From Desulfovirgula sp. (GTDB lineage Bacteria; Bacillota; Desulfotomaculia; Desulfotomaculales; Desulfovirgulaceae): a DNA stretch of 38,387 nucleotides. The notes under the pieces are model-generated. The model made no database searches, was not told where the DNA came from, and saw only the letters and a list, made by a program, of their open reading frames with translations. The stretch lies in the NCBI GenBank assembly GCA_020725525.1, contig DYEX01000117.1, positions 1-38,387 on the forward strand, in the 5' to 3' direction. Shown piece after piece: positions 1 through 8,098 of this stretch. The stretch's first letter is position 1, and every line of letters begins with the position of its first letter. The translations under genes and the position numbers were made by a program.

Positions 1-29
1 AAAAAACCGTGCGCCAGCCCTTGCGCATG

Positions 30-245
30 TCCTCCCTTCCACGCTTACGAAGTTAGCTGACGGGTTCGGGTTGAAAGGATAACCCTACCCCCCGGAAAAC
101 TCGGTAAAAAACCCTTTCAGTGCCAAAATACCCCCCACAGGTGAGCGGGTGAAGCTTTTACCTCGTTTCTTTACCTCGTTTCCAGGGAGATTCACCCCAG
201 GAAATTGGGTCCTCCGCTTCTTTGGGTAAAGAATTAAGCGTTCAG
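30..245 (-). promoter_or_regulatory. Cyclic-di-AMP riboswitch (ydaO/yuaA type)
   Basis: Read on the minus strand, this leader carries the hallmark 3' block of the ydaO/yuaA class. CCTTTCAACCCGAACCCGTC is followed by AGCTAACTTCGTAAGCG (complement of roughly 44-80). The 5' block CGCTTAA...GCGGAGGACCCA...GGGGTGAA lies near 190-240. The class binds c-di-AMP and usually turns off cell-wall hydrolase, osmolyte or potassium-transport genes. The aptamer reads leftwards, so the controlled gene lies outside the window. After GGGAGGAC (about 28-35) the sequence ATGCGCAAGGGCTGGCGC could be either the start of that gene or the TGCGC/GCGCA stem of an expression platform followed by six T. The edge of the window prevents a decision. 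Confidence 0.93.
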
Positions 246-272
246 GACATAAACATATTTAATTGCTTTTAA

Positions 273-3914: not shown

Positions 3915-4232
3915 TTAAGCCGTCACTCTGAATGAGCGGGTCGATTCCAGGGGCTCTACCACCGCCACCCGAGAGCCGTGTTCGGCCGCCCAGAGAATCT
4001 GAGATACGAGGCTACCCACGTCTCCTTCCCGAATGGTCCTGGCGGGCAAGGCCAGGGGAAGGCAGAACTCCGGGCGGTCGCCATAGCGCAGGCACACTTG
4101 CAGGTGGAGCCGGTCGCCCACCGATCGAAGTGGAGCAATGCGGGTTATCCGCCCGTCACGGGACAACAGTTCACCCTGCACCTGAGCAAGCAGGACATCC
4201 AGGTTTGTCTCCCACAGACCACTGCTGTACAC
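3915..4232 (-). CDS. Uncharacterised 105-residue protein
   Basis: I do not recognise this family. The product is a compact soluble protein of 105 residues without cysteines, membrane segments or a signal peptide. It has alternating hydrophobic stretches (DVLLAQVQGELL, RLHLQVCLRYGD apart from one Cys, SLVSQILWAAEHGSRVAVVEPL) that suggest an alpha/beta fold. The reality of the gene is supported by a complete expression cassette: a promoter at 4269-4297, a GAGGTG ribosome-binding site near 4241-4247, a GTG start at 4232, and a strong terminator directly after the stop. It is therefore a monocistronic unit between glcDF and the gene-free stretch that carries the candidate structured RNA. No function is proposed. 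Confidence 0.65.
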   Translation of the reverse strand: MYSSGLWETNLDVLLAQVQGELLSRDGRITRIAPLRSVGDRLHLQVCLRYGDRPEFCLPLALPARTIREGDVGSLVSQILWAAEHGSRVAVVEPLESTRSFRVTA

Positions 4233-4456: not shown

Positions 4457-4485
4457 TTTACCAATAAAGTTTCTGTATATATACC
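4457..4485 (+). promoter_or_regulatory. Possible promoter for the structured RNA
   Basis: On the plus strand TTTACC (4457-4462), a 17-bp spacer, and TATACC (4480-4485), inside an AT-rich stretch with overlapping TATATA. Initiation would be near 4492, about 20 nt before the closing stem of the RNA. The -10 match is poor. The remaining sequence 4298-4456 shows no gene and no other clear signal. Confidence 0.3.
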
Positions 4486-4512
4486 TTTGAAAGGGCAATA
4501 CTACAAACAACA

Positions 4513-4909
4513 GGGTCGGTAATGGCCGAGCCAAGACTGCTACAGGGTCGCAAACGGCTCTGTAGTAGTCGGCCAAAGGTTGATATCGGGTCAGAATGGC
4601 TCGATATCAGCCGGCGGGCAGATCAATGAATGTTCCGGCAGGCTCAGCAGCAGTCCGAAAGATTGCTGCCGGGTCGTAAGGGATGTTCATTGATCGAGCT
4701 AAGATCAGTACAGGTGCCGGAGTGTTTTTGTCGACCACGACTAAAATAGAGAGGTCTGGTGCAGTCGAGAGATTGCATCAGGCTTCCCAGGTATCTGTAC
4801 TGGTCGAGCAAAGGTCATTACGGGTTCCGTAATGGTCCACGGTAGCCGAAAGGTTACCGTGGGCTATGCAGGGATGCGTAATGGCTGTAGCGCAGGTCAT
4901 TACCGGCTC
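4513..4909 (+). ncRNA. Candidate large structured RNA, eight-way junction
   Basis: This gene-free segment folds almost completely. The closing stem P1 pairs 4513-4527 with 4895-4909 (15 bp). Inside are hairpin A 4535-4570 (16 bp, CAAA loop), B 4578-4612 (15 bp), C 4621-4695 (16 bp, a 4x4 internal loop, 5 bp, an A-C mismatch, 9 bp, CGAAA loop), D 4703-4805 (13 bp enclosing a small hairpin at 4725-4746 and a 13-bp arm 4754-4783 with GAGA loop), E 4813-4837 (11 bp), F 4838-4861 (10 bp, GAAA tetraloop) and G 4863-4891 (6 bp). By hand count, about 23 of about 123 pairs (excluding G) are G-U in the plus sense and would be A-C mismatches in the minus sense. The RNA is therefore plus-strand, opposite to its neighbours. 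Linkers GAGCCAA, GGCCAAA, GAGCTAA and GAGCAAA recur between helices. A terminator-like hairpin follows at once. I cannot assign it to OLE, GOLLD, ROOL, group I/II introns or another class I know. Transcription is not shown. Confidence 0.8.
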
Positions 4910-4913
4910 GAAA

Positions 4914-4946
4914 AAGAAACCCTTCTCCAATGGAGAAGGGTTTCTT
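4914..4946. terminator. Bidirectional terminator between structured RNA and ileS
   Basis: AAGAAACCCTTCTCC-AAT-GGAGAAGGGTTTCTT forms a perfect 15-bp stem. On the minus strand it continues into TTTTT and can end ileS. On the plus strand it is followed by ATTTGTATTTC and can end the candidate RNA, which closes only 4 bases before it. Confidence 0.85.
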
Positions 4947-4998: not shown

Positions 4999-7782
4999 TC
5001 ACCCCAGTGTTCCCACGACGCCCACACAGCGGGGGCACAGGGTGGGATGCTCCTGGTCCCGGCCGACTCCAGGATGGTACATCCAGCACCGCTCACATTT
5101 TTCTCCCGGCGCCCTTTCCACCACCACCGCCAGCCCGGGGATTGTTTCAGAAACCACCGCCTTTTCCGGCAGGTCCCCGGTCCATTTTTTCAGCTCCACG
5201 GCCGAAACGATGAAAATGGTAGGCAGATCCTGGGCCCTGGACAGAAAATCGTACATTTCCTCCCGGGCGTACAGGACCACTGCAGCCTCCAGGGAGTTGC
5301 CAATCACTTTTTCCCGCCGGGCCGCCTCCAGTGCCCGGGTGACCTCTCCCCGCACCGCCAGCAGGCGCTCCCATTTGGCCTCCAGCTCCACATCCAGGTA
5401 ATCTTCGTTAACCTGGGGCATGTCGGTTAGCTGGACACTTACCGGCGCATCCTTTTCTTTGGGGGCATAGCGCCAGATTTCCTCCGTGGTAAAGGCCAGA
5501 ATGGGTGCAAGCAAACGCACCAGGGCATGCAATACCTGATAGAGTACAGTCTGGGCCGCCCGGCGTTCCGGGGATCGGGCGGGGGTGGTGTAGAGCCGGT
5601 CTTTAATCATATCCAGATACAGCGCGCTCATATCAATGGTACAAAAGTGATGAATGGTATGGAAAACCACATGGTACTCGTAATCCCTGTAGGCAGCCAG
5701 CACCCGCTCCATCATCCGGTGCAGGCGCAAAAGAGCCCAGCGATCCATCTCGGGAAGCCGGTCATAGGGTACCTGGTCGCCGGGTCCGAAGTCATACAGG
5801 TTCCCCAACAAGAACCGGCAGGTATTGCGGATCTTGCGGTAGGCCTCGGTCATTTGCTTGAGAATGTTCTGAGATACCGCCAGATCACCCCGGTAATCGG
5901 CGGAACTCACCCACAGGCGCAAAATATCGGCGCCCATCTGATCGATAATTTTTAGGGGATCGATTACATTACCCAGGGATTTGCTCATCTTACGGCCCTG
6001 TTCATCAACCACAAAACCGTGAGTGAGCACAGCCCGGTACGGGGCCCGACCCCGCACAGCCACCGCCGTGGACAGGGAACTGTTAAACCAGCCCCGGTGC
6101 TGGTCACTGCCTTCCAGGTAGAGATCCGCCGGCCAGCGCAGTTCCGGCCAGATATCGGGTTGCTCCAGCACGCCTACATGCGAGCTGCCGCTGTCAAACC
6201 AGACATCCATGATATCGGTTTCCCTGGTAAACTCGCCGGCCCCGCAGGACGGACATTTGAACCCCGGGGGAAGCAGTTCGGCTGCTTCCCGCATAAACCA
6301 GATATCGGAACCGTGTTCCCTGAATAATTTCTGTAAATGGCCAATGGTTTCTTCCGTAATAATCTCCTTGCCGCAACCGGTGCAGTAAAATATGGGTATG
6401 GGAACGCCCCAGGTCCGCTGCCGGGAAATGCACCAGTCGCCGCGGTTGGCCACCATATTGTAAATGCGCTCTTCTCCCCAGGCCGGGATCCAGCGCACCT
6501 GGCGGATGGCCTCCAGGGCTTTCTGGCGAAAGCCCTCAATAGAAGCAAACCATTGTTCCGTAGCCCGGAAAAAGACCGGCTTTTTACAACGCCAGCAGTG
6601 GGGATACTGGTGGCTCAGGGTACCGCTTTTGAGCAGTTTCCCCCTCGCCTTTAGCTCGGCAATGATGCCCTCGTTGGCGTCGGCATAAAACTGTCCGGCA
6701 AACTGCCCCGCTTCCTCAGTAAAACGCCCACGGCCGTCAATGGGGGAAAGGATGGGCAAACCATATCGCTGCCCCACCAGGTAGTCTTCGTGGCCGTGAC
6801 CCGGAGCAGTGTGCACGCAGCCGGTTCCCGCATCCAGGGTAACGTGCTCTCCTAAAATGACCAGGGAATCCCGTTCAATAAAGGGATGCCCCAGAACCAC
6901 GCCCTCCAGGTCGCTGCCGGCAAACTCTTCCTTAACGGTCAAATCATTGAGTCCCACAACCTGGGCAAAAGAAGGCAGCAGTTCTTTAGCCACCACATAT
7001 TCCTCTTCCCCGGAAGCCACCAGAACATAGGTATAATCCGGATGCAAACAAACGGCCACGTTAGCAATCAGCGTCCAGGGGGTGGTGGTCCAGATGACCA
7101 CCTGGCTGCCCGCCGGCAAACGCCCCTTTCCATCCTTTACGGGAAAACGAACATAGATGGACGGGGACTTTTTATCCTGATATTCCACTTCCGCCTCGGC
7201 CAGGGCCGTTTCACAGGTGGCACACCAGTAAACGGGTTTCAAGCCCTTGTAAATGTAACCCCGGCGGGCCATTTCCCCGAAGACACCAATCTGCGCCGCT
7301 TCATAGTGGGGCATCAGGGTGAGGTAGGGGTGCTCCCAGTCTCCCCGCACGCCCAGCCGCTTAAACTCCTGCCGCTGGACATCCACAAATTTCAAAGCGT
7401 ATTCCCTGCACCTGCGCCGGAATTCCACCGGGTGAACGGCATGCCGGTTTAACCCCAGGTTTTTAATGGCCTGCTGTTCAATGGGCAACCCGTGGGTATC
7501 CCAGCCCGGCACATAGGGGGCATCGTAGCCGGCCATGGAATGATATTTGACCACAATATCCTTGAGTACCTTGTTCAGGGCAGTCCCCAGGTGGATGTGC
7601 CCGTTGGCGTAGGGCGGCCCATCATGCAGAATAAACTTGGGCCGGCCGGCATTTTTTTGCTGCACTAACCGGTAAATATTAATTTCATCCCAGAACTTTA
7701 AAATTTCCGGTTCCCGCTGGGGCAGATTGGCCCGCATGGGAAAATCGGTTTTGGGCAGGTTTAAGGTCTGGCTGTAATCCAT
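4999..7782 (-). CDS. ileS: Isoleucyl-tRNA synthetase
   Basis: The enzyme charges tRNA-Ile in the cytoplasm and edits mischarged valine. The 927-residue protein has the class I signatures HIHLG (in [15 protein letters not shown], about 61-75) and KMSKS (near 600), and the CP1 editing domain between them. The C-terminal zinc-binding motif CERCWMYH...LCPRCVG is also present. The length is normal for bacterial IleRS of this type. I place the start at the ATG at 7782 rather than the in-frame TTG at 7785, because GAGGTGG (7789-7795) is then 6 bases away. Expression is controlled by the T-box leader immediately upstream. Next to sepF-yggT-ylmH in most relatives, ileS is here separated from them by about 13 kb of catabolic genes. 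Confidence 0.97.
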
Positions 7783-7836
7783 CAAAAACCACCTCAGTTT
7801 TACGTTTAATGGCTGAAGTGTGTCCGGCTAAAATAG

Positions 7837-8098
7837 AAAAAACCCCGCCCCAAGGGACGGGATCTTCCCGCGGTACCACCCTTATAGACAGGTTAACGTT
7901 CACTGACCTGTCCCCTCGTTTTGCCGGTAACGGTGGCCAGCCGTCCGGGCTTACTGAACGGGAGTACTTCCCGCCGTTCAGCCGGCGCCTCCCGGGTGAT
8001 CTTCGCCATGGCTTCCTGTACCCGGTTCCCAGCTTCCCCGGGCTCTCTGTAACAGGAGGGACCTGGCTACTCGTCCCGCTCACAGGCTTTTGCACCAT
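7837..8098 (-). promoter_or_regulatory. T-box leader of ileS
   Basis: On the minus strand the T-box core AGGGTGGTACCGCG lies at 7869-7882; its TGGT pairs with the acceptor end of an uncharged tRNA carrying discriminator A. The terminator CCCGTCCC...GGGCGGGG (7843-7861) plus six T (7837-7842) competes with the antiterminator. The specifier codon in stem I is ATC (7998-8000, in GCGAAGATCACCC), an isoleucine codon that matches the downstream gene. Uncharged tRNA-Ile should therefore allow read-through into ileS. The 5' end is approximate. Confidence 0.95.

Follow-up and report, generated by a model that had tools for sequence, protein, structure and literature searches.

Introduction

Few large structured RNAs of unsettled function are known, and every new class has so far been notable. 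OLE (~600 nt), large and ornate, occurs in anaerobic and extremophilic Bacillota and forms a ribonucleoprotein at the membrane, while GOLLD and ROOL are large RNAs with GNRA-type loops, the latter encoded in prophages and phages (PMC12286853). GOLLD, ROOL and OLE form assemblies stabilised by A-minor contacts, according to the same paper (PMC12286853), whose reference list includes a paper on sporulation and aggregation defects. The raiA motif (ModT; ~205 nt) is likewise a structured RNA of Bacillota. The listed study of sporulation and aggregation defects reportedly concerns raiA. Among RNAs of spore formers, CsfG (RF00516, ylbH region; ~136 nt) is free-standing and has CU-rich loops (PMC3574147), and Bvs196/S547, a structured forespore RNA of 294 nt (MFE -82 kcal/mol), was reported in Bacillus between hinT and ecsA (PMC9147052); the promoters of both belong to the sigma-F/sigma-G class (PMC9147052).

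Here we describe an RNA gene in a 38,387-nt stretch of Desulfovirgula DNA (hereafter the window) whose resemblance to OLE, GOLLD, ROOL and raiA is only that of one structured RNA of unsettled function to another. Multivalent assembly of the GOLLD/ROOL kind would be possible for it as well, and it too is large, with GNRA-type loops; unlike raiA it is far from 205 nt and folds differently. It shares with CsfG a free-standing position, a sigma-F/sigma-G type promoter and spore-forming hosts, and with Bvs196 (compared by description only) its structured nature and forespore-type promoter, but it differs from CsfG in length, loops, fold and loci, and from Bvs196 in length and folding energy. No Rfam 15 family exceeded its gathering threshold over the RNA in the window or in nine homologue loci, and at E<=10 no plausible match was found over the RNA region; in particular, the models of OLE, GOLLD, ROOL, raiA and HEARO do not match it in the window, the region or the homologue loci. 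Thus the first-pass annotation was right to see a large structured RNA outside known families. A literature search that omitted many subscription papers and preprints yielded no report of the RNA, and a term search of the 50-genome (PMC11109978) and 26-genome (PMC8632094) discovery papers gave no match.

Results

A conserved plus-strand RNA with a six-way hub

The stretch singled out by the first-pass annotation (Table 1) is a conserved, plus-strand gene for a large structured RNA, with exactly the ends first proposed. Its plus strand folds with an MFE of -246.7 kcal/mol, against -132.4 +/- 5.7 for shuffled sequences (z = -20.2), whereas the minus strand reaches only -138.3 kcal/mol (z = -6.7); both flanking genes lie on the minus strand, as had been noted. 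Selection for pairing in the plus-strand RNA, argued earlier from G-U pairs, is borne out by this asymmetry and by strong covariation. The wobbles are indeed kept on the plus strand, but a hand count of about 23 falls short of the 31 of 162 pairs in the MFE structure. The 15-bp closing stem, long helices (14-16 bp), CAAA, CGAAA, GAGA and GAAA loops, and a terminator hairpin starting 4 nt past the closing stem were all present. The supposed eight-way junction is instead a six-way hub of the closing stem and five arms; the outer helices of arms 3, 4 and 5 were probably taken for junction arms.

Table 1. Coordinates of the RNA gene, its parts and its neighbours in the window.
Feature	Position	Strand	Basis or remark
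Small ORF, 105 aa, other side of RNA	3915..4232	-	no Pfam or NCBIfam match
-35-like element TGTATATA, consensus K-N-ATA-W-T, forespore sigma-F/sigma-G type	4474..4481	+	EM motif
-10-like element GGGCAATACTAC, consensus GG-NN-A-T-A-M-T-A	4493..4504	+	ends 8 nt before RNA
Structured RNA, six-armed star, 397 nt	4513..4909	+	folding and covariation
Closing stem, 5' strand (sixth arm, circularly permuted)	4513..4527	+	pairs with 4895-4909
Arm 1, one module	4535..4570	+	13/15 pairs changed on both sides
Hub mini-helix extending arm 2 (pairs 4573-4617, 4574-4616)	4573..4617	+	absent from single-sequence MFE
Arm 2, one module	4578..4612	+	helix in covariation alignment
Arm 3, inner module and outer module 4641-4675, CGAAA loop	4621..4695	+	two covariation helices
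Hub mini-helix extending arm 4 (pairs 4698-4809, 4699-4808, 4700-4807)	4698..4809	+	covariation
Arm 4, inner module and outer module 4751-4786, GAGA loop	4703..4805	+	two covariation helices
Arm 5, inner module and outer module 4832-4867, GAAA loop	4813..4886	+	two covariation helices
Closing stem, 3' strand	4895..4909	+	covariation alignment
Intrinsic terminator hairpin, T-rich tail	4914..4946	+	starts 4 nt past closing stem
ileS, isoleucyl-tRNA synthetase, convergent	4999..7785	-	Pfam PF00133, PF08264, PF06827; neighbour not conserved
T-box leader upstream of ileS	7850..8092	-	Rfam match

Homologues covary strongly. In 38 of them, standard pairs make up 98.1% of the cells over 138 pairs, and both sides have changed in 97 pairs; the covariation score is 0.465 versus 0.238 for shuffled data (reached by 0 of 500 shuffles), and only 30-42% of cells pair when the partners are shifted by 1-3 columns. 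The closing stem is 99.5% paired, with 9 of its 15 pairs changed on both sides. In a wider set of 109 sequences that span many families, the structure accounts for 109 of the 170 pairs strongest in mutual information; the alignment outside the home order was built from sequence alone, and the folds of individual distant copies independently back it. By blastn, 54 of 60 related genomes gave a match at E<=1 (the weakest being chance or terminator-only matches), 79 of 113 genomes of the class matched at E<=1e-5, and many genomes of the class carry two to four diverged copies.

The six-way junction recurs in most foldable homologues; about a quarter of the distant copies lack a clean six-way count under automatic folding, among them two in which the closing stem was not located. 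Two compact predicted variants, L163 (312 nt) and L159 (283 nt), remain six-way with shorter arms, which suggests a core of six inner arms to which the outer modules are optional additions. Arm 4 is branched internally, by a variable hairpin at ~4721-4748 that is paired in only 42-75% of sequences.

Covariation also refined the hub. Among the strongest mutual-information pairs outside the drawn structure were 4573-4617 (CG 83, GC 19, UA 3; 98% paired in 109 sequences) and 4700-4807 (UA 85, CG 16; 94% paired); in the same sequences 4574-4616 is 99%, 4698-4809 95% and 4699-4808 81% paired. Judged by the alignment, the two mini-helices formed by these pairs take the place of some of the single-sequence MFE pairing at the hub; they suggest a pseudo-threefold alternation of extended and unextended arms.

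One helix module repeated nine times

The arms are variations on one ~16-bp module, which occurs nine times: as the six inner arms (counting the closing stem, circularly permuted) and as three outer hairpins. Inner arms were read outward from the hub, with the closing stem taken as an inner arm whose tip carries the two ends of the RNA, and the outer hairpins of arms 3, 4 and 5 were read from their GNRA-type loops. In this register position p1 is G-C (mostly G.U in arm 5), p2 is R-Y in every module, p3 is U.G (weaker in arms 1 and 3), p4 is Y-R, p12 is G.U, p14 is U.G (G.U in arm 4, mixed in arm 5) and p15 is mostly C-G. Wobbles occupy p3, p12 and p14 in 905 of 1026 cells (88%) versus 441 of 4218 (10%) elsewhere; in the window copy they fill 25 of these 27 places. 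The start of each module is either a purine-rich strand of the hub (NAA-G) or, standing in for the hub, a GNRA-type tetraloop: the hub strands are GAGCCAA, GGCCAAA, GGCGGGCA, GAGCUAA, GAGCAAA and GUAGCGUA, and the apical loops GAAA, GAGA and CGAAAG sit at places equivalent to them. To our knowledge, a helix module repeated nine times with wobbles at a fixed helical register is an RNA design not seen before. Neither this repeat nor the link to sporulation described below had been recognised in the first-pass annotation.

A forespore-type promoter and a terminator

An EM motif from 60 non-redundant upstream sequences comprises a -35-like element with an ATA core (A in 56, T in 60 and A in 55 of the 60) and a -10-like element (G in 52 and 49, A in 60, A/C in 58, T in 60, A in 59), and in 44 of the 60 it ends 8 nt ahead of the RNA. 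Sigma-F promoters have a GGNNANAMT and sigma-G promoters a CATNMTA -10 element, with GYATA/GHATR at -35. The promoter agrees with this consensus (GYATA/GHATR, spacer, GGNNANAMT/CATNMTA), by which the sigma class was assigned, sigma-F and sigma-G sites overlapping. Moreover, the motif matrix scored the upstreams of ten loci of SASP spore genes from the same order at a mean of 9.3 versus -5.3 for window tiles (p = 1.6e-7; start codons were set by a simple rule, and two of the loci overlap one gene, leaving nine independent). Of 60 RNAs taken from a broad range of families, 50 scored above the 99th percentile of window tiles; a few of the 60 come from genomes that also supplied motif training sequences. 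Two other promoter classes were rejected: i) sigma-A, as the conserved -35 is K-N-ATA rather than TTGACA and a simple sigma-70 scan gave no plus-strand site; ii) sigma-E, whose -10 consensus CATACANT clashes with the invariant T and A.

At the other end, a U tract lies directly 3' of the closing stem in 35 of 57 diverse loci; in the window a separate hairpin takes its place. Read on the minus strand this hairpin is likewise followed by a run of Ts, which makes it a probable terminator of the convergent ileS transcript as well.

Near-confinement to genomes with spore sigma-F

We searched a 398-genome sample drawn across the phylum, taken to be Bacillota from the B. subtilis-type families and Thermosediminibacter in it, using a covariance model that covers the first 103 nt and, being built from one order, is of limited sensitivity. 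The RNA was found in 150 genomes, well over a third of those sampled. Spore sigma-F (TIGR02885, E<1e-75, a cut-off set by eye at a gap in the E-values) was clearly encoded by 340 genomes and missing from 58. It accompanied the RNA in 149 of the 150 genomes, the sole exception being a 61%-complete assembly, while genomes in which the RNA was not detected divided into 191 with and 57 without it (Fisher p = 6e-12, an overstatement since the genomes are not phylogenetically independent). As no copy was detected in 191 of the 340 sigma-F-positive genomes, the RNA is not a universal companion of sporulation. Among the holders are Desulfofundulus thermosubterraneus, Desulfoscipio geothermicus, Desulfotruncus, Desulfocucumis, Pelotomaculum, Desulforudis and Thermosediminibacter litoriperuensis. 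No match to the RNA was found in phage and plasmid records; a phage or plasmid origin was rejected on these grounds, and in this the RNA differs from ROOL.

Neighbouring genes vary

The genes beside the RNA differ among lineages (ileS, spoIVA, spoVT and others), and the small ORF is kept in near relatives only, recurring in eight close loci. Thus the RNA appears free-standing and trans-acting; control in cis of ileS or another neighbour was rejected, as the neighbours change and the RNA is convergent to ileS. No partner protein emerged from a search of the neighbourhoods, and no co-occurring protein family was found. In several lineages the RNA lies beside spoIVA or spoVT, genes named by eye from sequence (L026, L033, L048, L059; L029, L041, L090, L165, L194).

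Discussion

From the promoter, the gene content of the host genomes and the repeated module we infer expression in the forespore and a scaffold role. An own promoter and terminator, varied neighbours and diverged copies in many genomes argue for action in trans, and we consider it reasonably probable that the RNA is a trans-acting forespore noncoding RNA that serves as a rigid multivalent scaffold, with a dsRNA-binding protein as likeliest partner. It would be transcribed in the forespore by sigma-F (probably also sigma-G) RNA polymerase. Each module would form a ~16-bp A-form helix with wobbles at 3, 12 and 14, those at 3 and 14 lying one helical turn apart; repeated at a fixed register, they may constitute a minor-groove recognition site, which would give the RNA as many as nine docking sites of near-identical form. 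The most likely partner would be a dsRNA-binding protein produced in the forespore or packaged into it; alternatively, the sites would bind a helix or tetraloop of a second molecule of the same RNA. The particle would have its role in maturation, dormancy or outgrowth of the spore. The conserved wobbles could instead reflect RNA-RNA packing, metal binding or RNase III avoidance.

The same features might be read as those of an RNA-only homo-oligomer like GOLLD, ROOL or OLE, in which GNRA loops and purine linkers dock in the wobble-marked minor grooves of neighbouring molecules to build a cage, sheet or filament inside the spore. For such docking the RNA offers three conserved GNRA-type loops, six purine-rich linkers and nine helix sites that are nearly identical, and assemblies of this kind, held by A-minor contacts, are known for all three RNAs (PMC12286853). 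Nevertheless we regard it as rather unlikely: no intermolecular covariation could be distinguished, the strongest well-paired signals outside the structure being the intramolecular hub mini-helices, and the phage and plasmid ties of ROOL are missing here. We tentatively rate a protein scaffold above an RNA-only assembly. Allowing for both, we also advance a broader picture, which we hold somewhat doubtful as a whole: that many Bacillota endospores contain a dedicated RNA nanostructure in the shape of a pseudo-symmetric star, with six arms and nine minor-groove docking sites of near-identical form, and that it joins with further copies or with a spore protein to form a defined particle produced only in the forespore.

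A regulatory small RNA acting by base-pairing to spore mRNAs, a mode proposed for Bvs196 and suspected in the case of CsfG, would account for the promoter class common to those two RNAs (PMC9147052) and to ours. It is improbable here, since nearly all conserved bases lie in helices and the longest conserved unpaired stretches are the 7-8 nt hub linkers, leaving little seed sequence for mRNA pairing; CsfG's CU-rich loops (PMC3574147) have no counterpart. A ribozyme or RNA enzyme at work in the spore would be in keeping with a large, ornate and highly conserved RNA, but conservation is spread across nine equal modules with no single core, which makes catalysis very improbable. That the locus is a DNA-level element or selfish repeat (palindromes or a mobile element), as several diverged copies per genome amid varied neighbours might suggest, is scarcely credible, as the conserved G.U pairs work only in the plus-strand RNA and the copies come with promoter and terminator, are diverged rather than recent and have no phage or plasmid matches.

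Promoter and gene content tie the RNA to one process, sporulation, so its function is directly testable. Spread through Bacillota and absent from Rfam, the RNA would bear on the role of RNA inside forming and dormant spores.

CsfG itself is a separate RNA: RF00516 has no match in the genome that holds the window, and matches to the two coexist in 78 of the 398 genomes at separate loci (e.g., in G442 and G125). RF00516 matched 148 of the 398 genomes at E<=1e-3 and passed its gathering score in only 12, which suggests that the family extends far beyond Bacillaceae and that the Rfam threshold or model is too narrow.

Two further observations concern the window. A c-di-AMP riboswitch was found by Rfam near its edge (27-250, minus strand). 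The minus-strand ORF at 8482-9060 matches porphobilinogen synthase (ALAD, profile 186-230) over its first 45 residues and then a YbgC-type thioesterase, a pattern that points to a remnant of hemB either joined to a thioesterase gene or read through into one.
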